This document shows, in pieces, positions 2,913 through 42,275 of a DNA stretch of 64,000 nt. The notes beneath the pieces were generated by a model that worked only from the letters and a program-made list of their open reading frames with translations, ran no database searches and was not told the origin of the DNA. Made by a program: the position numbers and the translations under genes. The DNA is from Siphlonurus alternatus. Lineage: Eukaryota; Arthropoda; Insecta; Ephemeroptera; Siphlonuridae. Within the stretch, counting starts at the first letter, position 1; each line of letters begins with the position of its first letter. The stretch covers positions 8,295,094-8,359,093 of the forward strand of contig OX463786.1 of the NCBI GenBank assembly GCA_949825025.1, in the 5' to 3' direction.

Positions 2913-3411
2913 TTTATTTCGAAGTTAAAGGTTGCACAAGGCAACATACATCACGTCAAATGTCACAAGATACCAAAATATTAATAACTATACAAAAACA
3001 AATCACATATTATACTAACAAACAAAACAGCCACAAATTTCATCATAAAAAAAAACACAAGCCTAGCATTGAAATTTAAATTATAGATTTAAACAATTCT
3101 CAGACAATTTATTAGCAAAGAAACTTTTAACAGAATAAAATTCTTTATCAATTAACACAGATTTAAGCTTAGCTTTAAAAACAGAATCAGATTCCAGATT
3201 TTTTAAACAAGAAGGAAGAAAATCATAAATTTTTGCACATTGAAAATGAGGATTCCCCTCAGCAAACACTGAACTCTGTTTTCCAACCCGAGGGTTGTTC
3301 CTATTTCTTGTATTATAACAATGGACTGTATCAGCTATTATATGAGGCAGTAATATGCATAATATAGTATCATACAGTAGCTTATTTTTTGTAGTGTGCA
3401 TGTATAATGCT
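2883..3411 (-). mobile_element. 5'-truncated jockey-like LINE, 3' end with (ATT)n tail
   Basis: On the minus strand an open frame (3081-3401) encodes the C-terminal tail typical of jockey-type reverse transcriptases: CYNTRNR, then CAKIYDFLPSC, then EFYSVKSFFANKL. The same order occurs at 39232-39585 and at the end of the longer RT at 52592-53854, so these are one family. The stop is followed by an A-rich 3' UTR and an ATT/AAT trinucleotide run at 2883-2911, which reads as the 3' tail. Everything upstream of the C-terminal 100 residues is missing, so the copy is dead. The 5' junction is not sharp. Confidence 0.75.
3081..3401 (-). pseudogene. Reverse transcriptase C-terminal fragment (LINE)
   Basis: This fragment holds about 100 residues of the C-terminal domain of a non-LTR retrotransposon RT, beyond the palm. 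Recognisable blocks are YNTRN, AKIYDFLPSCLKNLESDS and FYSVKSFFANKL. No catalytic YADD motif is included, so it cannot be active. The apparent start is not a real initiator; it is simply where the truncated copy or a frameshift opens. It is close to the fragment at 39232-39585, which implies a family active in the recent past. Confidence 0.7.
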
Positions 3412-4059
3412 TTTAAAATTTTAATCGATAAAATTTTGATTTATTTTCAATGCGCGCTACCGGTACATTTATTTTTTATAATAGTTCCGTATGTATTTAG
3501 TAATTTCAGTTTACTATCTGTATTTAAATGCGTATTATTTTCAATGCATTTTTTTAAAACTAAAGGGAAAAAAATAACTATTTTAATGTATTTAACAATA
3601 ATATACACATTTGGAGAAGAAAAATTCCATGCTCTTTATATCATACATTTTTTTTTTTATAATAAAAACATACAGTATTATAGATGATAATCTTTTACAG
3701 TCTACACCAACTTTATACTACAAATACTTAATATTCTGCAATGCATCTTTAACATAAAAATATTTAATTTTACTTTCAGTCGAGTTTTTTTTGTTATGAA
3801 TATTATATAATGTTGAAAAGTTTAAGAATTTTAATGTAATAGAAGAGAAATAAGAATATTTTATATGGGAGTGGTTTTGGGACATCGTCAGTTTATTGCA
3901 GTTTTTCACGTTTCTTTATAGTTGACTCAACATAAGATTTTATATATACACACGGATGCAACCGTGTAGGCACGTAAATGGAATTTTATATATTCTTTTT
4001 TTTATTCTAAAGTGTTCTCTGTGTGTGACTATATAGTGTCATATACAAAAAGGTATATT
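3412..4059. other. AT-rich intergenic stretch
   Basis: I see no coding signal or recognised repeat here. A 63-codon minus-strand open frame at 3718-3909 is low complexity and is not credible as a gene. Confidence 0.5.
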
Positions 4060-5777: not shown

Positions 5778-6003
5778 TATCTATGAACTACATGAAAAAA
5801 TGCAGTAAAGTCTTTCCTTTTTATTAAAAAAATAATAACTTCATGACTGAATTAAAATTGATTTTTGTTCTACGTCTGAAAATTATCATCATAGTCTATT
5901 CGTTTTTATCACTGACCATTTTTCGGGACTAAATTATTTTCTGGATGGTGCTGGATAAAAATTAACAATTACAATTACTAATTTAATTTTTTGTGTACTG
6001 TAG

Positions 6004-6305
6004 GACTCTGGGACGCAGTTGTGGTTGGTATTTGTCTCCTGAGCGTCGTTCGACTACCGTGTCCCGCAATGTCTGCTCCTGCAACCGACCGCCACTCCCG
6101 ACCATCCTCGCCAGCCGAGTTTGGTCCCACGGGAGACGCCAAGTGGATCAAACCATGCGGGATGGGAGGTGGAGAAGGAGACGATTCCAGTCTAGGAGGA
6201 GAGTTCGATTCTGAGATGGTCTTTGCAGAAAATGAAGAACTCTCAAATATTGTTCTTCTAGCAAGAACAGCGCAAGGACAAGCAAATAGATTCAGAGATG
6301 AATAT
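6004..6305 (+). CDS. Helical cytokine exon 2: signal peptide, N-terminal extension and helix A
   Basis: The exon begins after a pyrimidine-rich acceptor ending TGTAG and stops at a consensus GTAAGT donor; entry is phase 1 and exit phase 0. It encodes a hydrophobic signal-peptide core (DAVVVGICLLSVV) ending near LPCPA. A linker of about 50 residues rich in Ser, Pro, Gly and Asp follows, with one Cys (about residue 56, IKPCG). Helix A comes next: EELSNIVLLAR, then TAQGQANRFRDE, then Tyr at the exon end. LAR, 12 residues, then YVK (VK from the next exon) reproduces human CNTF spacing as I recall it. The local GC content is clearly higher than the flanks, as expected for a coding exon. If no upstream exon exists, the first in-frame ATG is at 6069 and the protein would lack a signal peptide, as CNTF itself does. 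Confidence 0.8.
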
Positions 6306-6360
6306 GTAAGTACAATTTGTTTAAAAAAAAAAAAAAGTTAAGGGGCGTTAATAAATATTG

Positions 6361-6551
6361 TTAAGGGTGGTCGCAGACAGAATCGCATGATTAATATGAT
6401 AAAAAAAAAATAAGAACTTATGCGATCAGGTGTGTGCGCGCACACAGCTTCGTTCGTATCGCATGCTGTCGTATGATAAGAAATTTAGAACCGGTTCTAA
6501 ATGAGAAACCTACGATCGTAGAAATAAACGTCTGTGTGCAACCCCCCTTAA
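6361..6551. mobile_element. TTAA-flanked short inverted-repeat element (piggyBac-type MITE)
   Basis: TTAA at 6361-6364 and 6548-6551 bounds about 190 bp with related inverted ends: GGGTGGTCGCAGACAG on the left, and the complement of CTGTGTGCAACCCCCC on the right. TTAA target duplication is the hallmark of piggyBac-type transposition. The middle contains an alternating purine-pyrimidine palindrome (TGTGTGCGCGCACACA, 6431-6446). It sits 56 bp inside intron 2. No coding capacity. Confidence 0.6.
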
Positions 6552-6798
6552 CTGCGACAAAGTGAAATACTTATTTTTTATTGTTATAATATAAGATTCA
6601 TTTCTTTTAAATTTCAATTAATTATTCCTATTAATTAATGTTTTCCATTAAAAAATAAAAATAAGTTTCATTAATGCATCAGATAAATTCTCGTGTTTAA
6701 TATTTGTACTATGAATTCAAATATTTTGTAAGTGTTCTGTACCAAAGAGGGATCCGTATAAATATAATTTTAACAGATTAAAATTAAAAGCATTAATA

Positions 6799-7183
6799 GA
6801 CAATAATGGTTGCATTTTTTTATTTCATAATTAGAAAATATACATTAAATTGAGCTTTTCTGAATTTTTTCAGATTTTTTGGAGTGCGGGAACTAATTTT
6901 AAAAAAATATTTAAAATGTCTGAATTTTGGTGGTACACCTGATGGGACAACCGTGACGTCATCGACAGCCAATCACAGCAGCCGTGACATCATCAACAGC
7001 CAATCACAGCACGACAAATGACGTCACGGTTGTCCCATCAGGTGTACCACCCAAATTCAGACATTTTAAATATTTTTTTTAAAATTAGTTCCCGCACTCC
7101 AAAAAATCTGAAAATATTCAGAAAAGCTCAATTTAATGTATATTTTCTAATAATGAAATAAAAAAATGCAACCATTATTGTCC
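6799..7183. mobile_element. Foldback element carrying CRE and CCAAT motifs
   Basis: An inverted repeat with arms of about 150 bp: left end GACAATAATGGTTGCA, right end its complement TGCAACCATTATTGTC. It shares the arm core CTGAATTTTTTCAGATTTTTT with the 320-bp foldback family but has different outer ends. The loop has a near-tandem 30-bp unit containing TGACGTCA or TGACATCA followed by AGCCAATCA, and a third CRE at 7019-7026. Non-coding. Confidence 0.8.
6954..7026. promoter_or_regulatory. CRE x3 / CCAAT x2 cluster in the loop of a foldback
   Basis: TGACGTCA occurs at 6954-6961 and 7019-7026, with TGACATCA at 6985-6992. CCAAT, in the extended form AGCCAATCA, occurs at 6969-6973 and 7000-7004. 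These match CREB/ATF and NF-Y consensus sites. They lie 0.65 kb into intron 2. Whether they act as an enhancer is untested; they are part of a mobile element. Confidence 0.45.
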
Positions 7184-7921
7184 ATTATGAAAAAACTGAT
7201 ACAATGAATTATTTTTAGTAAGCATTTTAAACATGAGTACTTATAATTCCGTTACGCATATAAAAATTAAAAATAAAGATGCACTATGCAGGCGTGTTAA
7301 AGTTTGCCTTATAAATTTAAAAAGCGTAAATTGATATTTAATTAATCTGTCAATAGATAGCACACATATGTTTGTATGTTGTCGAAGTATAGGTATACTG
7401 TATAATAATTTCATTTTTAGCATAATTTAGCAGCGAAATTTCAAAGCGAATCGTTTAATTTTTGAGTAAAACATATTATTATTTAACATTAGATTTACAA
7501 TCTTAAAAATGTTAAACAAACCTTGATAATATCTCATCATTCTTATCTATATCTCATAAAGTCTATAATCTTATATTAAATGTTAGGAATTTCAACTTAA
7601 TTGACTTAAGATTATAAAGTAGCTAAGTTAGGAAGCGCGAGGCCACACATATGGCATTCATTTCCTCTCCACCCCCCTTTCTTGACTATAACACGCGTCA
7701 TTTTATTATAGACTCGATCAGCATTCAACCATATACGCATTAGCCTTTGATAAAGCCGCAAAACTTTTTATTTTTTTTTTTTGTCATCGGATGTTAGATA
7801 TTTTTATTTAGGGAGAATCTAATCGTGATTCATATACCTTAGTGATTACATTGTTTCCCGTTGTTTTGTCATAATATTAGGCAGGGGAATTAATTTGGTG
7901 TTAATATTATTTAACTTTCAA

Positions 7922-8187
7922 TAGAGGTTTCAAGTGTTCCCCGGCGGAAAAATTCTCTCCATAAGCCTCCATGTTAGAAAATTTGAATTTTTTGTCTGTA
8001 ATTATTATTTAAAGCTATTAATTTGTAACCCCCTCCATTTAGGGGTCTAGCGATAATGAATCAAGAACTTATTTTCCACTAAAGAATTTCTTTAATGTCA
8101 AAAAAGTTATTTTAATTAATTTTTTTTTTACATAAGTTTGGATAGGACGGTAAGAACACCGCAAAATCAGCTGACTTGAAGCCTCTA
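7922..8187. mobile_element. MITE with GAGGCTTCAAGT ends (copy 1)
   Basis: Starts TAGAGGTTTCAAGTG and ends with the complement ACTTGAAGCCTCTA. Internal blocks TTCCCCGGCGG, CTCCATGTTAGAAAATTT and AAAATCAGCTGACTTGAAG are shared with the copies at 12867, 25313 and 51825. The inverted ends are short (about 14 bp) and the body is not a hairpin. Non-autonomous, with no coding capacity. The TA/TAATGA flanks do not allow a confident superfamily call. Confidence 0.8.
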
Positions 8188-11100
8188 ATGACAAGTATTA
8201 CATAGAAATATAAAGCGTAATGATTGACAATTTTTTTCAGACGTTTTAAAAATATTTTTACTATTGATTTTATTTACTATAAAAAGAATTTAATTATTAT
8301 TTAATTAATTATAATTATTTAATTATTATTTAAATATTTGAAGTATTTTGCTTGGCGTACATTTTTTTAAATAAACTAAAATATTCTTTATATATTTTTT
8401 TTGTAAACTTTATTCAATTATTAATTTTATGTATTAATATTTTTGGATTTATTAAGATAAATCATAATTAGAAATCATTTAAGATAATCCACTGAAATCA
8501 ATGGTTTTGTCAGAATTTTTTAATAAATATATTAAATTCTATAGAAAATAAACAATATAATAATAAAAAAAAAGAAAATACTTCGACTTACAGACAAAAC
8601 ATTTAATATTATTATAATAAAGTAATGAAAGTAATATTATAATAAAAGTATTGTCGGTGCCACGCTGTCTAGCAAGTTGTGTTAAAAAGTGGGAGGTCTG
8701 TCTCGCCAAGACGATACTTTGCATGCATGAGAGAGAGAGAGAAAGGAGGGGAAGAGCGACTTGAAAAATCTTCTCATATATGCTGAGTTTGCCGAGATAG
8801 CGTGATGTCATATGGACACTTGCAGGTGCAGATATACAACACTTTAAGAATGCAACATATTCTCTACATTATAATATTTATATAACAGGATGATTTATAT
8901 CTTATTTCAAGAAAAATTATTTTTTTTTAATATAATTTTAATTGATAATTTGTGTACAAATTATAAAGGTATTTAACTTTTGTAGTCCAGAAAATTAGTA
9001 ATTATTTTTCGCAAGTGCTAATTTTATTTCTAAGGCTATGGAAAATATAGCATATTCACCAAAGTTGAAATGTATAAAATATTTATAATTTAAAATCATA
9101 ATTTTAATACACCGCGTAATCCGTGTACTGTACGGATAACGAATGACTATAAAGTCATTCGTTCAATTTTAGCTTAATTCGTAAATATCGTAATTTTGCA
9201 AAATATTTTATTTGTAATTTTTGTTGCAAAGTCATATCTCAAATCTGCAAAAAAAAATATATTGACTATTCACTTTACTTATTTTAATTTACGAATAAAG
9301 GTACAGTATTGAGTTATCTCGTTATTAAAAAAAAAAAAAAAATCAGAAATTCTGTATAAGATATTTCTATCGATATATATTATATATTTATCATTCAATA
9401 AATATCAATAAATTTTAAAATTATTTAGTTACTATTTCAAACAAAACTGAAACAATAATAATAATATCCAAACAAATAATGAAAAATACTAGACTAAATA
9501 AAGAGTAAAGTATTTTTATTGTACAGTAAATTAAATAATGTAATATAAATAAGTATTTAAAGAAAACAATAATAGAAAATAACTTATATTTCTTATAATA
9601 TCTTTGCTGCAAGTTAATAATTCAATAAAATTGTTCTTTTTGCGTTTACATATGCATGTCTTTTCAAGTTTTTCAAATTTGAGTTTTTTCAAAATGAAAA
9701 ATGAAAACTGACGGAAAGTAAAACTTATGAAAAAGTCGAAATAGACAATACATGGTATTTTCTCAGGGTACAACCCTGGTATTTTCTTTCCTTTTTGCCG
9801 CGCGTGCGTAATAACGCTTATATGAGTATAATGAGACCAGATATAAAACAAAGCAATTGTTTGTTCTTTCTGATAAGATCTATTTTCCTAATCTAAGTAC
9901 GTTATAAATGACCTTTATTGAAATTGTCCTGCATCTCATATGACTCATATCATGTTCGGCGCGGTAAATATAAAAAGGAACATAATGTCAGGTGTTTGTT
10001 TTTGAAATGTCTTTACAGTCTCTAATTCTGATTAGCTTGGCAAATTATTTCTTATACAGAGTTTGTGGTGATATCATTCATCAGAAATGTGACATATGAA
10101 TCGTGAGAAATTATTAAAGACAACTTGCATGCTTATAATGTTTATGAAAAGTTGATACTTTTTTAGTTATATTTAAATGCGTTCCCTTTTTCTATGATTA
10201 TGTCATGTCATTTTTCCCTTATGTCTATGATTTAATATTAAATTACATTTACTGTAGTGAAGCAAATTAATTTAAAAATATTAGTATACTGTATTTTTTT
10301 GAAGTTGCAGTTTTATTAATAATTACCTTTTATATTTATTGAACATTAAAAATGTGTCAAATGTGTCAAATTAATATTTAATTTTATTTTATTGCGAGTG
10401 ATTTTTTCGAAAAAAAAATATAAGTTTATAATATCTGCATTGTTATTTATCATTATCTATTATTAAACCAATCAATGGCTTTTCTGATGTTTTTTCCTAT
10501 CTTCTTATTCATTTCCAATTTTTAATACGAATTGAAACACTGATTTAATATAATTTAATTTATTTGAAATAATCGCATGATAATTTTAAATTTACTATAA
10601 ATTTTAGTACTTACGACCACTTATATCCAAGAAATTATTATACAGTAAAGACTACTGTACCTTAATAAAGACTAGGAAAATAGTCTCTACAGAAATTTTA
10701 ATGTGTTTTTCTGCACATGCATCATATTGGTATTCTTAATTTTTATCCTAAATTATAAAATTCACAATTTTTTTAATTCATTCATTATTACAACATATTA
10801 TACACACTGACCAATGTTGCAGTTATGAATGGGGTGTTGTCTTGTAGTTTTATGAATGAGATATGACGTCACATGGTTTCTAGTGTCAACGTTATTCCAG
10901 GGAGAGAACACGTGACAGTTTTATCAGAGCATCCTTCTTATAAATGACGTGATGATGACCGTTGTCACACGGCTTACATGTCAAATACCACCACACGAAA
11001 TACACACCTGTTCGTTTCATGTCGTAACTGCAGTCACGACTTTTGTATTTTTATTTTGTATTTATTTTAACTTTAATTTTAAAAAAAAAAAGTTTCTATT

Positions 11101-12866
11101 TTATTTTTAATAATATTTAAATTAATAATTTTTAATTTATTTCTTTTTAATTTTTTTAATAAAAGTAATAATTATAATTTATTTTTTTGTATATTGTTGA
11201 TTAATTTTCAATATTATCATATAATGAAATTATTTAATAAGTTTATTTTCAATTTTATATATTAATATAAATACATTACATGAATTTTGTGGAATGAACT
11301 ATGTTTGCATACTTTGCATAATGAATATCAAATAAAATTGTATATCTATTCAGCTATTTGTAAAATTACAATATAGTGTACATGCGTGAATATAATTATG
11401 AAATTTAGCAAATTAAAATTTTAACCTTGAAAAGATAAAAAAATGCATCATAAATCAAATAAATATATTTGATTTACAGATCGAATAGAGTTTATTTAAA
11501 AGCATGCACGTATTAAAATCGTAATATCCACAAATGATTATTCTTATTCCCCTTAATTACTAAAACATTATTCTTATTTTCCATGTAAAAGTTATATAAC
11601 CTGTCATAGAAATTTGTTTATCATAATTTACTAAGAAAAAAAAATTATCCTAATATTGCATGTTCATATTTCTGACAATCTTAGTAAAAATTTCTAGAAG
11701 TTCTAACTTGGTGACAGATTTTTACTGTCTTTTTCTCATGTAACTTGTCTCGCCCGCTAAACTCACACTCATATCCGGTGAACAACTTGGTTTCCGGAAC
11801 TCTATATAACCAACACGACATACTTAAAAACCGTTCTGTCGCAAAGTTAAAACTTGTATATACCACAGCAATTATTTTTTTTTTATTTACAATTTACCTG
11901 TATATAATGTCAATTATTATTTGTAATTGTTTAAAGTACCTTTTTTTTTTTTAATTATACTCTGAGCAACGATGGAAGTTCATGATTCATTTGCTATACT
12001 ATACTGATGTGTAATGCAAAATTTGTCCTTACAATTATTTTAATGCAATATAAAAAAAATATATTAAAAGATTTAAAAGAATAACATTTTAGATAAGTGT
12101 CAGTTTTGTTGTTTTTTATTTATTTTTTAATGAATTAACTTAAATTTTTATTTTAAATTTATATAATTTCATTATTTTTTACGTTAATTAATTACAGCAA
12201 AATTATTCATATCTATAACACATTTCCATATATTAAATTTGTAAAATTATATTTAATAATATTTATATAATTTCTCATATTAAGGAAATGAGCTTATTTG
12301 CAGTGATTATTAAAATGTCAATGTTTTTGTCAGATGGTGGTGAACAGTCTGAGATATGAATGAGGTGTGACCTGTTTGTTTTTATAATTCACAGTGACGT
12401 GATGTGTCACCTAGGAAACTTTAAATATTTACTTTCTGTCCCTTTCATCTTCTCTAGTTTTTTTTGGTGTCTGAAACAAAAGAAACAAAAAAAAAAAAAA
12501 AAAATAATATTACTTCGCTTTTCAAGTTTATTTAAATATTTAATTTTTATTTTTATTATTAACCCTTGGGCCCCTGCATGGGTTGGGATAATCCATTTTC
12601 AGATTGTAAAGTAATTGTACTGTACTATTTTATCAAACTATGCAAGTGCTGATATTATATATTATATTCCAATTTTAATTTGAGCATGTGCATCAATGCA
12701 TGGTAATTAATAATTAAGATCAATTAATTAAATAATTAACATTTTAATTAATATATTCAATTCACATCAAAACTAATATTTCAAGTAACACATTAAAATC
12801 AAAAAATCATATAATATATATTTGTTAAAAAAAAAGAATACATTTCAAAATATTTTTAGTAACCTA
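8188..12866. other. AT-rich intron 2 interior
   Basis: No exon or recognised mobile element is visible. It contains a short GA run near 8729-8742 and an A run near 9328. A GC-richer islet at about 10800-11050 includes a CRE palindrome (10864-10871) and a nearby AATGACGTGATGATGAC. Around 11745-11830 there is a small GC-richer patch with a TATATAA string. Open frames here are short and low complexity. Confidence 0.5.
10864..10871. promoter_or_regulatory. CRE-like palindrome TGACGTCA
   Basis: A perfect CREB/ATF octamer that lies outside any foldback copy, in a 250-bp GC-richer islet within intron 2. It is a candidate intronic regulatory site by motif only. Confidence 0.3.
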
Positions 12867-13153
12867 TGGAGGCTTCAAGTGATGCGCTTTCGCTGCGCAA
12901 CTGTTTGTCGCTAAGGTCCATCTTGCACTTGAAAATGAAGCAAAGTGTTTTTTTAACTTTTCTCGGTTATAAATCAAGTAAAAAATCTAAATCTTGAATT
13001 ATCTACTTTATTTTTCAGTTTGGACCAAAGCTCCGTAAAGGAATTTTCCCTGAAAAATCTTATTCTTGGTGAAAAAACGAATTCACGTTTTTTTTACATA
13101 GGTTTGGTATAGCGGGTGGGATCACCGAAAAATCAGCTGACTTGAAGCCTCTA
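12867..13153. mobile_element. MITE with GAGGCTTCAAGT ends (copy 2)
   Basis: TGGAGGCTTCAAGTG at the left and ACTTGAAGCCTCTA at the right. The interior TTTGTCGCTAAGGTCCAT and AATTTTCCCT blocks match the 51825 copy more than the 7922 and 25313 copies, so there are at least two subfamilies with common ends. Non-coding. Confidence 0.8.
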
Positions 13154-13983
13154 TTGACGAATTAGTTATATTAGACTATAGAATTTTTTTTTTGTATATA
13201 TAATAATGTTTCACAGGTGGCATGGTTAATGATCTTAGTAGACTATTTTATGACATAGGCCCACCTACCAACCATCATTGACTTTTTAAACTTGTTATAT
13301 ACCGCCAGCTTAGTATATAGCCTAAAGGTTATATATAATATTCTTAAAGATCCTTATATACCCAAAAGAGTTAGACCAATTTTGTGCTTCATTTTTTTCC
13401 CTCTTTTTACTAACTACCTTGAGAAATATATATATATATATTTTTTTTAGTGTTATTATTATTTATTTTTTAACAAAAACTTTAAAGTCGGCGATGATTT
13501 TTTTTTAACCTTTTTATGGTCATATAGTATTATTATATATACTTCACTATACTGACAAAACTTAAGGTAAAAATAATATTGTATATAGAAGTTTTTTGAA
13601 ATATTTTATGCCACACACTAAGATGATATTAATGAGATATTTTTTTTACAAAAAAAAAGAAAAAAAATAATAATAATGAACTCATCCGGGTATAAACAGT
13701 TGAAAAATATAATTAATCAATTATATTTGTCAAAGAATTTTAGAATGAAGAAATTGTAATGGAATTTTTATTGACAAAAATTGGTGAGTAGCACTATATT
13801 ATATTTTTTATATTTTAATATAGAAATGTTTAAATTTCATTTTTTTTTCAGTTTATTTTATTTTATTATACAATTAGACATAAATTTAGTTAAAATTAAA
13901 ATATAGATGACATAGGTCATGAGAAACACAAAAAGAGATATAGAACATAGAAAATAAAACACAATTCAGTACTTGACGAATAC
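13154..13983. other. AT-rich intron 2 interior
   Basis: Contains a short TA run near 13429 and several homopolymer tracts. No coding signal or repeat family was recognised. Confidence 0.5.
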
Positions 13984-14301
13984 AATGGACAATTTACATA
14001 ACACTTTTCTTATTGCTGAAATGGATAGGGGGTACCAAATTATATGCTACTCTGAATTTTTTCAGATTTTTTTGAGAACGGGAACTATTTTTAAAAAATT
14101 ATTGAATGTCAGTTTTATGACGTCACGGGCGTTTAACGCCTATCCTTTTCTAAAAGGACAGACTCCTCGTGACGTCATAAAATTGACTTTCAATAATTTT
14201 TTAAAAATAGTCTCTAAAAAATCTGAAAAAATTCAGAGTAGCATAACTTTGCACGCTCTGTCCATTTCTGCAATAAAAAACGTCATGCAAATTGTCCATT
14301 G
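13984..14301. mobile_element. 320-bp foldback element (copy with CRE loop)
   Basis: Ends CAATGGACAATTT and its complement. The arms run through TTATTGCTGAAATGGATAGG, the GGTACC block and CTGAATTTTTTCAGATTTTTT to TTTTTAAAAAATTATTGAA. The loop is about 75 bp with TGACGTCA on both sides. An RNA copy would fold into a hairpin with a stem of about 120 bp. The open frame through it is an artefact of the palindrome. Confidence 0.85.
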
Positions 14302-14837
14302 CAACTAAAACGATACGTTATATTATATATTAGGAGTTCAACAACAACTCCTTTGGCATATTTATTGACAAATTGGGCAGTTTATTTATTATTGATAATT
14401 AAAATATATTTTAATACATGTGTGAATGTCAACCTTACATTGATTTTTACAATAAACATATTGCATTTCAATGGACATTTAATATTATAATACGATTGCT
14501 GTTATAATTAAGGTTTATTCTAATAAGCATAAATTTTGAAATATAAATAATGTCAATTTAACTATTTTAAATTTTATATTAAATGTAAAATTCAATTTAA
14601 AATAAAACTGATATAATATAAATTTTATTTATTTCAGAGTAAAATTAATATATAGAACATAATATCGGGTACAATATTATTTATATTAAATATTTCATAA
14701 TTGCAATAACATATTTATATATTTGAACGCAGTAAGTAACAAGAAAAAAAGTCCTTGAAAGAGTTTAAAAAAGATTATTACGTTAAAAATACTAATCATT
14801 TTACGTTATAAAGCTCTGTAGAAATAAAGAAAGATTG

Positions 14838-14887
<50 letters not shown>

Positions 14888-15742
14888 ATATATAAATATA
14901 TATATCGTCAAGAGAGTATATTACTAAGGAATTTTTACAACCGACAAAGAGCAAAACTCTTAGCAACTCATTTTTACTCATTTACGCCCAACATGTTGTG
15001 GTAAAAATCTGTTGTATAAATAAATATATCTATATAAAAGCTATATTTTCTCAACAACAGCCATCAGTGAAAAGCAATTATAACAACTAAACATCGAAAC
15101 ACGCTAAAATTTTTGACCACTGTCTGCTAAAATATTGTTGTTAAATAATACTTTTTTTTTATATAATATAATCTTGTCATTAAGTATATCTATATACTTT
15201 TTGAGTAAATTATTATATAATAATTATTAATATATGTTATATAACTGTACATATATAGAACCGTCTTATATAGGATTATATGTCTCGTCATTTTAGTTTA
15301 AAATAATTTTTACTATATGATTAAATTATTATTTTTAGATATTTTAAAATAAACTAGAACAACCAGTATTAAAAAAATATATATACAGTATTATATTATT
15401 TGTAGATTTTTATTATTATGTACAGTTTTTAATGATTTTTTTAAAGCTGTTGAAACAAAAAGTGATATATTTAGAACAAATTTAATACTTAATCTATTTT
15501 CCGTATTTTTGTTACAATAGATTCAGTATAGTCAACTTTTCTTACTTGTATGCGAGGCGTGTTGCATTCTGGTTGATACAAGGGGCAATGAAATTTTAAC
15601 ATACATCTTTTGTATGAAGAATAAAAAAATAGTAAATTAAGTAGATTACAAGTTTTTTTTCCTATTGTAAAAAATAAATAATTTTGATTTCAATATTTAA
15701 TTATGAATTTTTAATTTTATTATGAAATATTGTTATATAGTA
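14302..15742. other. AT-rich intron 2 interior with a GA microsatellite
   Basis: Apart from the (GA)n tract at 14842-14884, I see only AT-rich DNA without coding signal. Confidence 0.5.
14842..14884. repeat. (GA)n microsatellite
   Basis: About 21 uninterrupted GA units. Confidence 0.95.
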
Positions 15743-16066
15743 TAATGGAGTATTGACCTCAAATTTTTTTATTGCAGAAATGGATAGAGGGTGCATAGTT
15801 ATGCTACCCTGAATTTTTTCAGATTTTTTAGAGCCCGGGAACTATTTTTAAAAAATTATTGAAAGTTCTTTTTGTGACGTCACGAGACGCCGCTCTTTAA
15901 GAAAAAGATAGGACTTGACGCCGCGTGACGTCACAAATAGGACTTTCAATAATTTTTTAAAAATACTTCCCGGACTCTAAAAAATCGGAAAAAAATCATG
16001 GTAGCATAACTTTTCACCCTCTATCCATTTCTGCAATAAAAAAAATTGAGGACAATACTCCATTAT
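15743..16066. mobile_element. 320-bp foldback element, ATGGAGTATTG subfamily
   Basis: TA-ATGGAGTATTGACCTCAA at the left and the near complement TTGAGGACAATACTCCAT-TA at the right. Arms contain TTGCAGAAATGGATAGAGGG and AGAGCCCGGGAACTATTTTT. The loop has GTGACGTCACGAGACGCCGC and CGCGTGACGTCAC. Direct TA flanks fit a TA target-site preference (Tc1/mariner type), but other copies have flanks that only extend the palindrome. Confidence 0.85.
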
Positions 16067-18163
16067 GCATATAAATGGACGACCTGCATGATTTTTTTTT
16101 TTTTTACATATTTGGATAAAGCCTTTAGATATTATGTACTGTATTGTATATTTTTTTCTAATTTTTTTGAACCCTCTAATCGTTCTGCAAAATGCTGTGA
16201 CGTCATAGTCATGAAAATATTTAAGACACGAGTATACGGAATTTAAGAATTTACATGACTATTCTAAAAATAAAATAAAAATATATAATATGCAATATAA
16301 TATATATATTGCGTGATATATAAATTATATTATCATATTTTTCTTTTCAAAAATGTAATACTATAAGATATTCCTACGAAATTTAAAGGAAAATTTCATT
16401 AAAATTTAATAAATTGAAATGCGTTTTTGCTATGACACACACGCAAAATAATTTATATAAAAGTTTCCAATTTCTCTTTTTGTTTTACCTTACGTATATA
16501 TACGATTGCGTGTTTGATAAAGTTTTGATTTTCTAAGTTTCAATATCTTCCAGGAAATACAATGATATTTTTTCTAACCTGTTGCATCTATTTCTTTTCC
16601 TTACTGTATGCAAATTTAACAGTGGATGTTGTAGGATAACAATATGATATACCGGTATATATTTTAAAGGGAAATATTTATTTTATATCCTATCTATCTG
16701 ATTTGTGATGTAGATTTAGTTAAATTCAAATGAAATAAAAAAGTTAAAAACAAAAATTTCCTCAACCGTTATTAGTGTTATTACAGTAATTTTGTTGTGT
16801 AATATATAGAGTTTAAATTTTTACACTGAAAAATAATCGAAATATGTACATATATTTGCTATTACCGTTGTAATCATTGACACTATTATGCCATGCTCAG
16901 CCTTAGTTTCAATAAGAGTAATCTCCCTTTTGATAATGTTTAAACGTAAAAATTTAATGTTTATTTAAAGTTTTTGTTTTATAAATAATTTATTTATTTA
17001 TTTTTCCTTTTTTTATAAACAAAGTTATTCTGGGTAAAATTCTTAACTTATTTATGAATTACAGTTAAATACATATTATCAATAAAACTGATACAAAAAT
17101 AATTTGTTTTATAATCATAATATTGACTCACAGATATCTCTATATTATTTGATTTAAGCATTGTCAAATAGCAAACGACCTCGCTTGGTATCAACATTTT
17201 ATAATTGTAAATATTTTGACATATTAGGACTTTGGACGTGCTAAAACGCAGAAGTATAAATATTATGTATTTAGCTTCATATATTTTCATTGTGAAAAAA
17301 ACAATATACAATTAAAGTTATTTTTAAAACAAGTTATATAATATATAACATTGTTTACACCTGTTATTTATAATTTTTCACATCGTATCTCGTAATAAGA
17401 AAAAAATAAATTAGTCATAAAATATGCTAATGGAAAAATACCTAAATTATATAATATTAAATATATATAGTTAAATTATTAAAGAAGTTGTTTTTAATTT
17501 TTATATGACACAAAAATATATATTAAGAGTGGGGAAAAAGCTAGAGGCAAGGTTATCAGGGATCCCCAGCAGTAACAGTAGCAGCCAAGTTGCCAACGTT
17601 CCACGAAGTAGAGTGTTAGTTACGGGAAGGAAACTAGTTACTAGCCAATAGCACCGTAACGATGCATTTCATGGAAATGTTGTCAGAATTCATAGAACAG
17701 AAATGAGATAACGAGAATTAATTGATGGAAAGAAAAACGTTGATTAGTTTTTATCTTATATTGTCTGCAGAAGTTGCAATAAAAAATAATATACTTTAAT
17801 TTATTTAATATAATATTTATTTTATATTTTAAATTAATTTATTATAATTTTATAAATATTGTTTAAAATCATATTGAGTATATTATAATTTGAATTATTA
17901 TGTGTAATTTTAAATTGAAAAATTAAATTTTTTATTAGAAATAGTATAAATATAATTTGATTCATTGTAGAGTTGAAATCATACAGAATACTCGGTTAAA
18001 TTTTAGTTATTGGACTTACGTATTTTATAATTTTGAAATTTGTCTATCAAAGCATGGTAGCTCTATTTACTATGGTTATATAGTGACCCATGTATATAAG
18101 GCACACCCAATCATATGCGTGAAATGCTCTGACATCACAGCAATTTAACGTAAATTCGATAAG
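16067..18163. other. AT-rich intron 2 interior
   Basis: At 16150-16250 it holds a CRE-containing segment that resembles 27110-27230 (listed separately). At 17540-17710 there is a GC-richer islet with no supported open frame on the + strand. Otherwise no gene or repeat was recognised. Confidence 0.45.
16150..16255. repeat. Dispersed CRE-containing repeat, copy 1
   Basis: CCTCTAATCGTTCTGCAAAA, then GTGACGTCATAGTCATG, then AAATATTTAA, then CATGACTAT forms a small stem-loop. The same order appears at 27128-27222. Class unknown. Confidence 0.45.
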
Positions 18164-18365
18164 CAGTTTTCAAACTTTTTGACTCGAAGTCCCAGATAAT
18201 ATTCAATTCAAAGATGATGCCCCATTTTTTTCTTCCCCACTGCTTTCCTATTTCCCTACTTAATTAACCATACAGCCTTGGTCACTATTAACCGATTTTC
18301 ATGAAGTCCCAAACGAAAAATTTCACTGTCCCAAATTTGGGACGCGTCTCATAGTTTGAAAAATT
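18164..18365. mobile_element. hAT-like short element, copy 1
   Basis: Starts CAGTTTTCAAACTTTTTGAC and ends with TCATAGTTTGAAAAATTA, so both ends carry TTTTCAAACT in inverted orientation. A related copy lies in the opposite orientation at 57225-57434. CAG...TTTTCAAACT ends resemble hAT (Charlie-type) non-autonomous elements. No 8-bp target duplication was convincingly found. It ends about 110 bp upstream of exon 3. Confidence 0.6.
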
Positions 18366-18473
18366 ATCGATTTGGAACCATTTACGCAAATTGAAATCCG
18401 TGATAATACCTCTTATTCTTTAATTACCTTGTATCATAGGTGGACTAACGATGTTTTTATTGCGTGTTCTCAG

Positions 18474-18614
18474 GTGAAAAATACATTCAACGTGGACTTC
18501 ACTCAGCATCACGATGAGTGGAAAACACTTCGTTATGAGTGGCTTCCCACCCAGCAAGAAATACCCAAGAATCTCGGGGAGTCAACTCCGGTGGAGCACT
18601 TGCAAAGTTTAGAG
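18474..18614 (+). CDS. Helical cytokine exon 3: end of helix A and AB loop
   Basis: The acceptor TTCTCAG is preceded by a pyrimidine-rich tract and the donor is GAG|GTGACT; both borders are phase 0. It encodes 47 residues beginning VKNTFNVDF, which completes the YVK motif begun in exon 2. They continue through a Trp-containing segment (DEWKTLRYEWLPTQQE) to HLQSLE. In the long-chain helical cytokines this is the position of the AB crossover loop. GC content is above the intron background. A hAT-like element ends just upstream and a 490-bp hairpin begins 59 bp downstream. Confidence 0.8.
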
Positions 18615-18672
18615 GTGACTTTTTAAATATCATGGGAGAAGGGGAAGATAGTACAAAATATAAGCAAATGGA

Positions 18673-19162
18673 TAATGGGGTACTGATAAAAAAAAAAAGT
18701 TTCAAGTTTTTGTCAACATTTTAAAAGGCATGAAAATTTCATGAAGAACAAGCCCTATTACAGCATTCTACGACAATTTCCTGATTTTATATGAATTTTT
18801 AAAACCTCTCAAAAATTACGTCATAGCATTGAATCTTATATGGGAAAATAGATCAGTTAACATTGCCAAATCCCATACTTAATATTGAAATGTAACCAAA
18901 ACTTCATTTGCAAAGTTTTTAGGTGCTAGAATCACGATAATGAAGGTTTTAAATTCGTACTTCAATAACTTTTCATTTTAGCAATGCTAACTGATGCATT
19001 TCCCCATTTAAGATTCAATGTTATGACGTCACCAAAAAGTTTTAAAAATTCATATAAAATCAGCAAATTGTCGTAGAATGCTCTAATAGGGCTAGTTCTT
19101 CATAAAATTCACAGTACTTTTTACTAGTTTTGCTAACTCAAATACCGGTCAGTACCCCATTG
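18673..19162. mobile_element. 490-bp foldback element in intron 3
   Basis: The left end AATGGGGTACTGA is mirrored by TCAGTACCCCATT. Matching internal arm blocks include TTCATGAAGAACAAGCCCTA against TAGGGCTAGTTCTTCAT, GCATTCTACGACAATTT against its complement, and TTTTAAAAATTCATATAAAATC. It is not related to the 320-bp family and I see no second copy in the window. Confidence 0.8.
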
Positions 19163-19200
19163 AAGAAAGTCGATTTAAAAATAATATTTCATTTTCTCGT

Positions 19201-19534
19201 GAATGGACAACATACATGAACAAATTTTATTGCAGAAATAAATAGAGGGTACCAAATTATGCTACTTTGAAATTTTTCAGATTTTTTTGAGATCCGGAAC
19301 TATTTTTAAATAATTATTGAAAGTCCTGTGATTTCAGTTGGCACCCCTGATTTCTTAATAAAAAGGATAGAGACTGGACGCCTATTGATGCCTCCAGGGG
19401 GCATGACCGCACTTTCAATAATTATTTAAAAATAGTTCTGGGTTTCAAAAAAATCTGAAAAAATTCAGAGTAGCATAATTTGGTACCCTCTATTCATTTC
19501 TGCAATAATTTTTTTTCATGTATGTTGTCCATTC
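19201..19534. mobile_element. 320-bp foldback element, ATGGACAACATACATG subfamily
   Basis: GAATGGACAACATACATGAA and its complement bound arms with TTGCAGAAATAAATAGAGGG and GGTACC. The loop lacks the CRE and instead has GGCACCCCTGA and CCTCCAGGGGGC blocks, as do the copies at 43160 and 49047. It lies in intron 3. Confidence 0.85.
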
Positions 19535-19767
19535 CTTAATTTAATTTATTATAAATAATTTATTTCGATAAATATTGAAAAATAAGTATTTATTTACATT
19601 GTTTTAAATAGTATTATATTAAATTTTCTTTCATTGCAATGTATTAATGTAAAATAGCAAACTAAGTATATGAAGGAAGACTATAATATGCATAATTATG
19701 TAAAAATAGCAATAATAAAGAATGTGATTCACCCATAAATGCTAACGTGTCCATGTTTGTGTTAAAG

Positions 19768-19902
19768 CTGTCGCAAGCTCTGAAGGACTGTTACAAGCAC
19801 CTTCAGAAGTTCGCAGTTGGACTCGAGCAAGTGGTCTACGACCAGGATGAGTCCAGTGGCTACAAGCCGGACTTCCAGGCTACGGAGTACAGTCTAAGAT
19901 CT
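19768..19902 (+). CDS. Helical cytokine exon 4: helix B and start of helix C
   Basis: Acceptor TTAAAG (a weak pyrimidine tract) and a consensus GTAAGT donor at 19903; both borders are phase 0. It encodes 45 residues starting LSQALKDCYKHLQKFAVGLE, an amphipathic helix with leucines in heptad-like spacing that corresponds to helix B (CNTF has a similar L..NLQAYR..H.LLARLLED stretch). A short loop (DQDESSGYKPD) and the start of helix C (ATEYSLRS) follow. It contains one Cys (about residue 160). The alternative acceptor CGCAAG ten bases downstream would break the frame. Confidence 0.8.
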
Positions 19903-20811
19903 GTAAGTACAACTCATAACTCATGTACAGTTATGAAAAAATAAAACTGGAACAAATCACAGAGTGTTTTAAATGAGCTCCATCAGTTCATTGTCCTGAG
20001 TGGCAAACGGTGCCAGGTAGACTCTGTAAGTCACCTCCCTTGAACTCCGACAGTGTTGTCACATAAGCAAAGCAAGTGGACTGATGGTGCTTACTTCTAC
20101 ACTCCAGCATGCAACGTGTTCCAGTCTTTTTCACCATAACTGTATAATTTTATTTAAAATTATTTTGAAATAATTTCGAATTTTATACAACAATTTTTTG
20201 CTTTTTGCGCAAATTAAATAACAACCTTTTATTATTTGTTTTCTTGGTGCTTATAACATTCATATATTTCTGTTACTCTAATTTCTTTTTCGTGTTTTAA
20301 TTAATTTATCAAGACAATGCATATACCCAATTATTGTATTAAAAAACTACACCATAAAGGGACATGTTCATTGCAATCTTTTAAAATTATTTTGTATTTT
20401 AAAATAAAAAACTGAATCATTTATGCATTAAAAAATTGCACACATTTACTTTTAATAGATTTATTCAGTTCATTTGGCCGTAAAAATAGCATAGAACAAG
20501 TCATATACATCATAAAACAACACAAGACAAAAATACACACAAAAAAAAACACATACATATATATATGTATATATTATATATACACTAATAAACTATAGTT
20601 AGCCAAGTAGAAAGTTACTCTTTTTGTAAAAAAATCTTTCACATTATAAAACAAATTTTCCATTAAATATTTAAATAATTCCTTTTTAAACATGCAAAAG
20701 ATTCAGAATTTTTTATATGATCAGGTATAAAGCATTAAATATTAGAGGCACAATGTAGCTAGGATTATGATTACATATTGTTATTAACATGTGATTTATG
20801 TTTTGTTACAG
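19903..20811 (+). other. Intron 4 of the cytokine gene
   Basis: 909 bp from GTAAGT to TTACAG. The first part (19960-20130) is moderately GC-rich without an open frame; the second holds a LINE tail on the opposite strand. Confidence 0.75.
20450..20720 (-). mobile_element. LINE 3' end in intron 4, opposite strand
   Basis: On the minus strand a 40-codon frame (20574-20693) reads MFKKELFKYLMENLFYNVKD, then FFTKRV. This parallels VFKAKLKSVLIDKEFYSVKS, then FFANKL of the fragment at 3081-3401 and the end of the RT at 52592. A one-base shift upstream joins it to a KNSES block. It is a short dead remnant of the jockey-like family and had not been obvious because of its length. Coordinates beyond the coding part are approximate. 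Confidence 0.6.
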
Positions 20812-21027
20812 GTACTTTGTGAGATCCAAGCTGCCATGTTGGAACGTAGTGTGAAGCAACATTCAGATGTAACTCGTGATATAATGTCAAGTGACTTTAG
20901 AGACAGGAATGAAGGGAATACGTCTGTAAGAAATTTAAGAGATTGGTTCATATTTAGAGATTATATGAATGGTTTGGAGTACGTAGTTGATGTCTTTGAA
21001 TATTTTATTAATAAAGCTGGATCATGA
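20812..21027 (+). CDS. Helical cytokine exon 5: helices C and D, stop
   Basis: A good acceptor (TTTTGTTACAG) with phase 0 entry; it ends in TGA at 21025-21027. It encodes 71 residues. VLCEIQAAMLERSVKQHSD completes helix C and includes a Cys. A polar CD loop contains one N-glycosylation sequon (NTS, about residues 233-235). Helix D is NLRDWFIFRDYMNGLEYVVD and the chain ends FINKAGS. The helix D pattern parallels CLCF1/cardiotrophin (D-F-W-L-L-K-E-L...W-L...D-F). The FxxK signature used by LIFR-binding members just before helix D is not present; the aligned positions are small or polar. The downstream 3' region is AT-rich with AATAAA candidates at 21059 and 21719. Confidence 0.85.
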   Translation, partial: VLCEIQAAMLERSVKQHSDVTRDIMSSDFRDRNEGNTSVRNLRDWFIFRDYMNGLEYVVDVFEYFINKAGS

Positions 21028-22140
21028 GATTCAAATTTGTCAGATATTTACTTAAAAAAATAAAATCTGACATAACGGTGATTATTTTCATTGTTAAAGA
21101 AAAGAAATTCATTTTTCGTCCCATAGAATACAAACATTTTTTGTATGAGATTTTCTTTGATTTCTTTTTAATATTATTTATTTGCTGTACTATTTTTTTT
21201 TTTTTAAAAATAATGTACTTATTTGTATTTTAATTGTAAATTTAAATTATTTATTTATATTTCTGTATTTTTTATGATATTGTTTATATTATGTGAATAT
21301 GTATGTATAATTTATTACATAATTTATTAAAAAGATTAATTAATTACAGTTAAAATACTGCATTAATGAAATATAAACTATTAGCACAACTTATTTATTA
21401 GTGCCATATTTGTTATTAATTTTCTATAATGTAAATTAATACATTTTCAATTTTTTTTTTCTTAAAAATTATAAAGCCATGTACATCGAATTGAATTTGA
21501 CTTATAATTATGGCTTAATTTTTATTAATTCCTATTTTTTTATGTAATTTATTTAAAAAAATGAAAATTGATGCAGTATAATTTGATGATGTTATATATC
21601 TGTGATTTTAATTTAATGAATGTATTTTTAATTAATGGTTCCTATAACATATTCTTGTATTTTCTTCTATCACAAAATTGTTCTATTAAAAAAAAAATTA
21701 GCACTTTTCTCCACTCATAATAAAATTTAATTAATTAAAAAATATGGTCAGTATATATTTATATAATAATTATGTATTTAAAGAATGGGATGCCCATATA
21801 AGTCAATGTTATTTGACGATTATTTTCTGAAAAAGTTGTAAATTGAAAATTTTGTGGCAGCTTTTAATATTTCTTGGCTTAATGTCTGCAATAGAAAATA
21901 ATATCAATGAAATTACTACAGTGTATTTTAAACACATACACACAAAAATAGCCTAAAAATTCAATGTGCCATGTTATTGGTAAATTAAATGTGTCATAAT
22001 AATTGTAAAAGATGAAGTATACATATTTAAAATAATCATATTGATTTAATCTCCATGTTATTGCAAAATTTTGATTAATTGTGTAAAATTATCGTGCTTG
22101 ATCAGCAAAACTTTAATCTGCCGTTATGTTTTTTTATATA
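21028..22140 (+). other. Presumed 3' UTR and downstream AT-rich DNA
   Basis: Follows the cytokine stop codon. AATAAA strings occur at 21059-21064 and 21719-21724. TTATTTATT nonamers, the core of AU-rich mRNA instability elements, occur at 21174, 21248 and 21391. In DNA this AT-rich such strings arise by chance, so neither the poly(A) site nor the AREs are proven. Confidence 0.4.
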
Positions 22141-22460
22141 ATGGAGTATCGACCTCAATTTTTTTATTGCAGAAATGGATAGAGGGTGAAAAAGTTATAC
22201 TACCCTGATTTTTTTCAGATTTTTTAGAGCCCGGAAACTATTTTTAACAAAATATTGAAAGTTCTTTTTGTGATGTCTCGAGACGCCGCTCCTTAAGAAA
22301 AAGATAGGACTTGCCGCCTCGTGACGTCATAAAACGGACTTTCAATATTTTTTTAAAATACTTCCCGGGCTCTAAAAAATCTGAAAAAAATCAGGGTAGC
22401 ATAGCTTTTCATCCTCTATCCATTTCTGCAATAAAAAGAAATGAGATCGATGCTCCGTTC
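22141..22460. mobile_element. 320-bp foldback element, ATGGAGTAT subfamily
   Basis: ATGGAGTATCGACCTCAATT to GAGATCGATGCTCCGT. The arms share all family blocks; the loop has TGATGTCTCGAGACGCCGC on one side and CGTGACGTCA on the other. It lies about 1.1 kb downstream of the cytokine stop. Confidence 0.85.
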
Positions 22461-23426: not shown

Positions 23427-23737
23427 ATGGGAGTAACGACCTCATTTTTTTTTATTGCAGAAATGGATAGAGGGTGAAAAGTTATGCTACCCTGATTTTT
23501 TTCAGATTTTTTAGAGCCCGGCAACCATTTTTTAAAAATTATTGTAAGTGCATTAAAAGTGCCGCCTCTCTTAATAAAAGATAGGACCCAAAAGGGACGT
23601 GGATTCGAACCCGACCTCGCCAAAACTTTTTAGCAATACTTCCCGGTCCCTAAAAAATCTGAAAAAAATCAGAGTAACATAACTTTTCATCCTCTATCCA
23701 TTTCTGCTATAAAAAATTTTGAGGTCGATATTCCATT
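23427..23737. mobile_element. 320-bp foldback element with B-box-like loop
   Basis: ATGGGAGTAACGACCTCA to TTGAGGTCGATATTCCAT with the usual arms. The loop differs from the CRE copies: it has GGGACGTGGATTCGAACCCG, which contains a GATTCGAACCC string like the internal B box of tRNA genes. The same loop type occurs at 24701, 28280, 50130 and 57003. Confidence 0.8.
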
Positions 23738-24700: not shown

Positions 24701-25001
24701 ATAAAGTACCGACGTCAAAATTTTCAAAATGGATATAATAGAGGGTGAAAAGTTATGCTACTCTGAGTTTTTCCAACTTTTTTAGAGCCCGGGAAGTGTT
24801 TTGCTAAAATGTTTTGCCGAAGTCGGGTTCAAACCCACGCCCCTTTAGGTACTATCTTTTTATTAGGAGAAGCGTAACTTTCTCTGTACATTCATTAATT
24901 TTTTAAAAAATAATTCTCGGAGTCTGAAAAATCAAGAGTAGCGTAACTTTGTACGCTCTATCCATTTCTGCAATAAAAATATTTGAGGTCATATACTCCA
25001 T
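24701..25001. mobile_element. 320-bp foldback element with B-box-like loop
   Basis: Degenerate left end (AAAGTACCGACGTCAA) and right end TTTGAGGTCATATACTCCAT. The loop has GGGTTCAAACCCACGCCCCT (B-box-like). The left arm has lost part of the TTGCAGAAATGG block. Confidence 0.75.
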
Positions 25002-39022: not shown

Positions 39023-39224
39023 ATATATTATATTTACTGCTGCATGGTCACAAATGACATATCCAGACATACTATTCTCGCCCTTCCAGGTTTTTTGTGG
39101 ATCCAACCAGAAATTTTGAAGCTCTTTGATCGAACCTATAATATCATGCAGCATAAAAAGTTGCTTCTAGGATTTTGTGGGATTCTCCCAAGCATTAAGA
39201 TCTCCCAAGATTCAAAAAGCGTGA

Positions 39225-39785
39225 TTCATGTGTGACACATTTCAAATCAAATAATATGCTTACATTGCCTTGTATGTACATTGTACAGTGTGCTGTTTTT
39301 AGAAGAAAGCATCCTGATTTGTATCCACAATTTAATTCAATCCACTCTTACAATACTAGAAACAATAATCGTACTTTAGTGGATAAAAAAAATTCAGTGT
39401 TTGCGGACAGAAATCCCCACCATCAATGCGCTAAAATTTACGATTTTCTTCCCTCGTGTGTAAAAAACATCAAGAGTGACTCTCTTTTCAAATCAAAACT
39501 GAAATTAATATTAATTAACAAGGAATTCTATTCTATTAAGATGTTTTTTGCAAATAAATTGCCAGAAAATTGTTTACAATTTTAAATTCATCTGTTTGTT
39601 TTATTGTTATAAATGATTGTTGTTTGTTTTTTCTCTTTGTTAGTGATTTTGTATTGTTTTTGACCAATATCCATATTTATTATATATTGTTTTGTATGTT
39701 TTTGCTATATGTTATATTCTCTGACGTGATCAATGTTGTCTTGTACAACCTATATGTTCAAATAAACAAATAAAATTAAAAAAAT
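39225..39785 (+). mobile_element. 5'-truncated jockey-like LINE, 3' end
   Basis: The coding part (to 39585) carries SYNTRNNNRT, FADRNPHHQCAKIYDFLPSC and EFYSIKMFFANKLPENC. It is the same domain, and nearly the same sequence, as 3081-3401 on the other strand. A T-rich 3' UTR ends in AAATAAACAAATAAAATTAA near 39760. Confidence 0.75.
39232..39585 (+). pseudogene. Reverse transcriptase C-terminal fragment (LINE)
   Basis: 117 codons of the post-palm C-terminal domain of the jockey-like RT, from TLPCMYIVQCAVF (the thumb-end helix) to the natural stop. No catalytic motif is present. The family's last residues (FANKLPENCLQF versus FANKLSENCLNL at 3081) show that the two copies share a recent parent. 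Confidence 0.7.
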
Positions 39786-39869
39786 CACTAAATCAGGATG
39801 GTATAACAGCAGTCAGCTACGAGTTTCCTTTTTTCACCCCCTTCGCAATGCTACAGGATAGGAGAATCA

Positions 39870-40310
39870 CGGACCAAATACCCCCGGACGAAATACCCCC
39901 GGACCAAATATCCCCGCCCGGACCGGACGAAATACCCCCGGACGAAATACCCCCGGACGAAATATCCCCGGACGAAATACTCCCGGACGAAATACCCCCG
40001 GACGAAATACCCCCTTGTAAATGGAGAGGGGCGGGCGACCAACACGGGAGGGGAAGTTGACTTTATTTATAAAATTTTCACAACAAATATATATCATATA
40101 TAATACGGTAAGCGGACCAAATACCCCCGGACGAAATACCCCCGGACCAAATATCCCCGCCCGGACCGGACGAAATACCCCCGGACGAAATACTCCCGGA
40201 CGAAATATCCCCGGACGAAATACTCCCGGACGAAATACCCCCGGACGAAATACCCCCTTGTAAGTGGAGAGGGGCGGGTGACCAACACGGGAGGGGAAGT
40301 TGATTTTATT
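39870..40310. repeat. 15-bp GC-rich minisatellite in a 243-bp duplication
   Basis: The unit GGACGAAATACCCCC (variants with TATCC or TACTC) runs at 39871-40015 and again at 40114-40256. Each block is interrupted by the same GCCCGGACC spacer and followed by the same CTTGTAAATGGAGAGGGGCG, then GACCAACACGGGAGGGG. The whole segment is therefore duplicated with a period of 243 bp. The frames give PDEIPPDEIPP on one strand and RGYFVRGYFVRG on the other; I regard these as artefacts. Confidence 0.9.
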
Positions 40311-40792
40311 TATAAAGTCTGTTTTTCTGTCGTTTGTCTGACGTCACACGCGTCGTATTAAAGAAGGAAGTTAGTAACGTTAGGCCAATACATTTTACAT
40401 TAATGTATCATATATCATTCATATCAAATTAAAATTAATGTGTAATATATTTTGATACGATACATTTTATGCATGTTAATTATAATTGTTTATATTGCAT
40501 TTTATCCGGTAGGATAGGAATATGAGCCTTACGGACGAAACTCGTAGCTGATGCGTGATTAAGCACGTATTTCAACATATAATATAGTTGTATACGCAAT
40601 ACAATATATTTACTGTACATTTTTTTTTAATATATAAATTTGAATTTTGACATATTTAGCTATATTTACTCAAGACAGAAAAAACACATTATATATTACG
40701 ATCAAATATTGGATTAGATTTTTCATTATTAAAAGTATAAATTACCAAATCTATATTTGTTAAAAAATTACTATACCTTTAAGTTTTATTAA
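40311..40792. other. AT-rich intergenic stretch
   Basis: A CRE-like CTGACGTCACACG occurs near 40340. No gene was recognised. Confidence 0.45.
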
Positions 40793-41950: not shown

Positions 41951-42275
41951 ATGGAGTATCGTCCTCAACTTTTTTTATTGCAGAAATGGATAGAGGGTGC
42001 AAAGTTATGCTACCATGCATTATGATTTTTTACAGATTTTTTTGAGACCTGGAACTATTTTTAAAAAATTATTGAAATTACTTTTTGTGACGTCACGCGG
42101 CGGCAAGTCCTATCTTTTTCTTAAGGAGCGGCGTCTCGTGACGTCACGAAAAGGACATTCAATAATTTTTTGACAATAATTCCCGGGCTCTAAAAAATCT
42201 GAAAAAAATCAGGGTAACATAACTTTGCACCCTCTATCCATTTCTGCAATAAAAAAAATTGAGGACAATACACTA
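41951..42275. mobile_element. 320-bp foldback element, ATGGAGTAT subfamily with CRE loop
   Basis: ATGGAGTATCGTCCTCAACT to TTGAGGACAATACACTATT. The arms are standard and the loop has GTGACGTCACGCGGCGGCAA and CTCGTGACGTCACG. The loop is inverted relative to the copy at 15743. Confidence 0.85.

Follow-up and report, generated by a model that had tools for sequence, protein, structure and literature searches.

In this study we describe a gene in a 64,000-nucleotide stretch of DNA from the mayfly Siphlonurus alternatus (the window: positions 8295094-8359093 of contig OX463786.1, in a genome of 455.7 Mb). Its product is very probably the mayfly representative of a family of arthropod cytokines of the long-chain, four-helix class-I type that includes the PF15972-positive (Unpaired) proteins, and which would serve as ligands of Domeless in the JAK-STAT pathway.

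Helical cytokines, Unpaired among them, are a kind already known: Drosophila has three Unpaired ligands, and the gp130-like receptor of insects is Domeless (PMC9195186). According to the available excerpts of the papers cited here, an Unpaired ligand is missing in the honey bee (PMC1847501), Tribolium (PMC2375007), the locust (PMC4624584), triatomines and other hemipterans (PMC5778769), soft scales (PMC11084805), the planthopper (PMC10069781) and Varroa (PMC12027997); in Halyomorpha a putative upd was reported, but it was glossed as uroporphyrinogen decarboxylase (PMC7071726). In the excerpts of a 2026 survey, IL-6-family cytokines are given for vertebrates only, Upd for insects and a lectin ligand for a crustacean (PMC13203501). 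Shrimp peroxiredoxin 4 and the CC-CL C-type lectin have been reported as Domeless ligands (PMC9195186, PMC12316391); like the present family they are proposed arthropod JAK-STAT activators, but they are an enzyme and a lectin and not helical cytokines. What is unexpected is a well-conserved, unnamed family in relatives of the insects whose ligand was called missing: unnamed members occur in near relatives (Apis cerana, Bombus, beetles, a cricket, a whitefly) of several of these groups. No naming of this family in print was found in the accessible excerpts of the open-access literature, subscription journals and bioRxiv lying outside the scope of that search.

Gene structure and conservation of the family

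The gene occupies the forward strand, with the following features:

6004..6305, + strand: exon 1 (residues 1-100), with a hydrophobic segment, a linker, the KWIKPCG motif and most of helix A
6006..6065, + strand: hydrophobic segment LWDAVVVGICLLSVVRLPCP, putative signal peptide or internal signal-anchor (Kyte-Doolittle)
6141..6161, + strand: KWIKPCG motif with Cys51, N-terminal to helix A (conservation, PF15972 matches)
6216..6305, + strand: predicted helix A, residues 71-100 (101-105 in exon 2)
6306..18473, + strand: intron, phase 0, 12,168 bases; junction Y|V also seen in read-through open reading frames (ORFs)
18474..18614, + strand: exon 2 (residues 101-147), with the end of helix A, a short helix 109-116 and the A-B loop
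18615..19767, + strand: intron, phase 0, 1,153 bases; junction after EL[QE] in read-through ORFs
19768..19902, + strand: exon 3 (residues 148-192), with helix B 148-172 carrying LQKFAVGLEQVVYDQ and the first half of helix C, 180-192
19903..20811, + strand: intron, phase 0, 909 bases; junction before [VT]LCE in read-through ORFs
20812..21027, + strand: exon 4 (residues 193-263 and the stop TGA, 21025-21027), with the remainder of helix C including Cys195, the C-D loop and helix D
21059..21064, + strand: AATAAA, putative polyadenylation-type signal, a short distance 3' of the stop codon

An earlier sequence-only reading had proposed four exons with consensus borders joining in phase, and this holds. 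All four exons have GT-AG borders (the acceptor of exon 1 ends in TACTGTAG and its donor is GTAAGT) and form a single frame of 263 codons and a stop, the product being 263 residues long and not the 268 then claimed. The G+C fraction of the exons is 0.35-0.53, against 0.17-0.34 in their 500-base flanks.

A protein search with the spliced translation returned 80 matches, the two best being mayfly proteins that rule out chance ORFs as the source of the exons: Cloeon dipterum (72% identity over 100% of the query length, E 1e-126) and Neocloeon triangulifer (Baetidae; 75% identity, 92% coverage). The alignment of P0001 covers the whole of exon 1, that of P0002 only the part from MSAP onward. Moreover, the junctions recur in ORFs of other contigs that read from exon into intron, several of which are near-copies of each other. 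The Y|V junction was found in 10 of 11 such ORFs, the eleventh (P0118, ending EDYVSTLH) having been split elsewhere by the search pattern; of the other borders, the acceptor before VK[KN]TF recurs in 4 of 5 ORFs, and agreement is complete for the donor after EL[QE] (6 of 6) and for the acceptor before [VT]LCE (5 of 5). With these mayfly matches and the recurrence of the junctions in other arthropods, the four-exon model lies far beyond chance, and it is confirmed as matching a real gene. There is no start codon upstream of the hydrophobic segment within the four exons, and exon 1 starts 2 bases into a codon; a further exon is therefore expected upstream, behind a phase-1 intron.

Judged by sequence comparison, this is a conserved arthropod gene rather than a lone one, and it is mostly uncharacterized in databases. 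Eight positions are invariant across the 118 rows of the family alignment (Q160, A163, F183, L194, C195, R235, R241 and L247). In alignment A3, Cys195 of helix C is present in 118/118 rows, Cys51 in 115/118 (the other three being gaps) and Trp237 in 111/118, and the A-B loop of exon 2 carries near-invariant W123, L124, P125, P131 and K132. Members were found in cockroach, termite, katydid, cricket, stick insects, whitefly, spittlebug, louse, beetles and many Hymenoptera, as well as in the copepods Eurytemora and Tigriopus; those with species names include Apis cerana, a bumblebee (Bombus), a cricket, beetles and a whitefly. No fly, moth, decapod, chelicerate or mite was named among the matches listed (120 of 187 in one search, many rows being unnamed). 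The database labels of named members read uncharacterized, hypothetical or unnamed, save for P0138 ('HutI_0') and Lasius niger P0075 ('unpaired-like'), from which it follows that some person or pipeline had met the Unpaired link before. A tree built from 36 proteins chosen by hand places the window protein in one clade with Cloeon, Neocloeon and Ephemera (support 100/99), where it adjoins Cloeon and Neocloeon (98/86).

Divergent members were also seen among metagenome proteins: in P0088, P0089, P0104-P0107, P0109, P0112 and P0116 the KWVNPCG motif is replaced by WHDPCGLKH, and in P0091 the KWVNPCG-type motif is replaced by WHNPCG. Since P0088 and P0091 branch next to the copepods in the same tree (100/99), the named rows may understate how widely the family is spread among arthropods.

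Predicted fold and kinship to Unpaired

Structure prediction gives four high-confidence helices, A (71-105), B (148-172), C (180-203) and D (229-262, carrying RNLRDWFIFRDYMNGLEYVVDVFEYF), in agreement with the four helical segments in up-up-down-down order proposed earlier; the order was deduced from structural matches, not from a printed topology. The predicted shape is a long-chain four-helix bundle in which the helices are long, as are the A-B and C-D connections, and the mean predicted local distance difference test score (pLDDT) is at least 95 in 15 of the 19 ten-residue blocks from residue 81. The 50 Foldseek and the 50 VIA-align matches listed comprise nothing but IL-6-family cytokines, G-CSF, prolactin, growth hormone and placental lactogen, a ranking that rules out a match as a generic helical bundle. 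CNTF, IL-11 and CLCF1, all gp130-type ligands, stand at the top in both models, rows within 1 Z being tied. The structure check suggested by the sequence-only reading thus gave a confident bundle with cytokine relatives, and the models support a long-chain class-I four-helix cytokine fold of the IL-6 superfamily.

The sequence comparisons point to Unpaired. P0163, which shares 36% identity with the window protein over 263 residues (E 3e-53), scores 29.1 bits against PF15972 (cut-off 27, E 9.3e-7); P0158 and P0142 reach 19.4 and 16.2 bits, and the other seven of the ten proteins in that comparison gave no match. At E <=1 the profile is matched by 14 of 118 members, and no other Pfam family was hit by several members with its best E below 0.001; Pfam IL11 was matched by 3/118, with a best E of 0.01 only. 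The matches of P0163, P0158 and three group consensuses start at or just before the KWIKPCG motif. Family members thus share with Unpaired (PF15972; Drosophila Upd1-3) sequence homology over the KW..PCG motif and helices A-C, and the PF15972-positive beetle member has the same predicted four-helix fold as the window protein.

The earlier assignment to IL-6/CNTF/CLCF1 therefore stands for the four-helix IL-6-superfamily fold and falls for the CNTF/CLCF1 branch in particular, the sequence likeness being to Unpaired. The LAR-x12-YVK motif then likened to CNTF is indeed present at residues 85-102 and occurs in CNTF too. The first aligned pair with 8d74_D is 72:10, so that the motifs would superpose if helix A is ungapped; with 1cnt_3 it is 74:11, one residue out of step. 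Human CNTF, though, aligned to the 118-row profile with an hhalign Probab of 0.03 on a scale to 100, and its semi-global alignment to the position-specific scoring matrix (PSSM) scored 4.8, against a mean of 9.3 (standard deviation 5.5) in 150 shuffles, 115 of which equalled or exceeded the real score. Because both scores are at chance level, the motif argument carries no weight, and a sequence link to CNTF, the member of that branch that was compared, is rejected. Conserved Cys51 and Cys195 further set the arthropod family apart from the vertebrate IL-6-family cytokines (IL-11, CNTF, CLCF1, IL-6, IL-27, LIF, OSM). Sequence comparison thus supports a place with the Unpaired family rather than with CNTF/CLCF1 in particular. 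In other scans, Pfam gave only COA2 (E 0.11) for the window protein, and a PDB sequence search gave one match, peptide deformylase (E 0.17), and none with the 42-row profile.

Proposed secretion and signalling, and competing readings

Residues 1-20 are hydrophobic, and the 15-residue Kyte-Doolittle mean reaches its maximum for the protein (2.37) at residue 1; P0001 starts before this segment. Eighty of the fetched proteins extend 60 residues or more to the N-terminal side of the PC motif, and in 51 of these R[DN][QE]RT lies close to the start of the chain (for example P0003, P0005, P0008, P0016, P0050 and P0163). These are not 51 independent cases, because Hymenoptera predominate. In Hymenoptera the context is typically MEAILxRDQRT; beetles, cockroach, termite and katydid have GMLDRDQRT or GLLDRDQRT, the firefly P0050 having GMLDRDERT. 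The distance from motif to hydrophobic peak is 55-134 residues in 49 of the 51, 175 in P0081 and 261 in P0137. Conservation across orders suggests that this N-terminal region is translated, in which case the hydrophobic segment would lie inside the chain, and the gene may specify a precursor of the type II membrane-protein kind. LDRDQRT was found neither in the window with up to 2 mismatches nor, exactly or with 1 mismatch, in the 186 kb ending at 6003; two 2-mismatch matches in those 186 kb, one crossing a stop codon, were judged to be chance.

We infer a JAK-STAT role from family and fold. The protein would most likely enter the secretory pathway by the hydrophobic segment at the start of exon 1 and be released as an up-up-down-down helical cytokine of about 200 residues, whose N-terminal Cys motif may form a disulfide with the invariant Cys of helix C. 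The cytokine would then bridge chains of the gp130-like receptor Domeless, and this binding would activate JAK (Hopscotch) and STAT. The contig also carries a STAT gene, at a distance of 2.9 Mb (three exons above the cut-off).

Several observations weigh against this interpretation. The window protein alone gave no PF15972 match at E <=10 and missed the gathering score. Since the mayfly consensus is also without a match, the Unpaired placement rests on homology through relatives, and it was drawn via the PF15972 profile rather than by direct comparison with a fly Unpaired sequence. Nine of the 12 group consensuses (all-family, two beetles, copepod-like twice, hemimetabolous, bees, ants, 55 Hymenoptera and mayflies) lack a match, only one of the 42 members of alignment A1 matched at E <=1 (E 0.14), and the alignments stop at profile positions 168-177 of 273, leaving helix D uncovered. 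As to secretion, the Neocloeon record P0002 starts at MSAP, past the hydrophobic segment, and in 51 long gene models this segment begins only at residue 81-365, so that a signal-anchor fits as well as a signal peptide. No convincing 5' exon (ATG-started, in the right phase) was found in the 86 kb ending at 6003: at a donor score of at least 5/8 there were 132 candidates, of which the one most like the Cloeon N-terminus was serine-rich and unconvincing, and at 6/8 or more none lay in the first 6 kb of the window. Finally, a search with PF17887 identified no JAK, an uninformative result in that control genomes gave none either; a six-frame search with PF15972 was uninformative for the same reason.

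One competing reading, rather unlikely in our view, is that the family is a separate line of helical cytokines parallel to Unpaired; the two lines would share one ancestor, and flies may keep both. This reading and the Unpaired one differ solely in orthology, and the mechanism could be common to both; the unmatched window protein and the uncovered helix D speak for the parallel line. Against it, the member that exceeds the PF15972 cut-off groups with beetles (with Zophobas 94/92; five beetles together 85/90), and no dipteran or lepidopteran name occurs among the matches listed, many rows being unnamed, as is expected if their copies are divergent Unpaired proteins. A conserved secreted long-chain class-I cytokine or hormone acting through a receptor other than Domeless, as prolactin- or growth-hormone-like hormones do, is quite improbable: the gp130-type ligands lead both structural rankings (with the ties stated above), and Unpaired is the one Pfam family with several member matches at such E-values. 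We give very little credence to a helical bundle of unrelated function whose cytokine likeness is convergent. These rivals do not exclude the preferred explanation. That the four exons belong to more than one gene, for which the repeat-packed 12 kb intron of the one-gene model might be cited, can be practically dismissed, as single annotated proteins of other mayflies span all three junctions and the junction positions recur across other arthropods.

Should the protein prove to be a Domeless ligand, bees, pests and crustaceans would offer systems in which to test how JAK-STAT signalling governs immunity, gut repair and growth. Slowly evolving intermediates would then also join the IL-6-type cytokines of arthropods to those of vertebrates. 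More tentatively, Unpaired may have arisen before the flies, as the fast-diverged tip of a slow-evolving IL-6-type cytokine present in arthropods since at least the copepod-insect ancestor. In bees, beetles, locusts and bugs this cytokine would be the Domeless ligand reported missing. Its precursor is possibly anchored in the membrane, the conserved part before the hydrophobic segment, with the (M/L)LDRDQRT-type motif seen in gene models of many neopteran insects, then forming a cytosolic tail. Such a precursor would be a new mode of presenting an IL-6-type ligand.

Repeats and other elements of the window

Rfam and tRNA scans gave no matches. The window holds a family resembling miniature inverted-repeat transposable elements (MITEs), 250-276 bases long and bounded by inverted TTGCAGAAATGGATAGAGGGT. 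With up to 3 mismatches this end was matched 19 times (mean 0.00 in 100 shuffles): nine pairs face each other, and one copy stands alone. Two of the elements lie in the 12 kb intron and a third in the intron after it. These and the remaining features are:

14013-14273, 15772-16036, 19230-19505, 22167-22431, 23455-23709: MITE-like elements, facing TTGCAGAAATGGATAGAGGGT pairs
41978-42249, 43189-43464, 49075-49324, 59197-59464: MITE-like elements, facing TTGCAGAAATGGATAGAGGGT pairs
24953-24973: single MITE-like end
52592-53854, - strand: 420-residue open frame with an RVT_1 reverse transcriptase match (E 1.2e-27), part of a retrotransposon that looks to be of the non-long-terminal-repeat type
39199-39585 (+ strand) and 3081-3440 (- strand): similar C-terminal retrotransposon remnants, by eye
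39725-40343: short-period repeats, by eye, with ORFs of both strands reading PRTKYPRTKYP or SSGGISSGG

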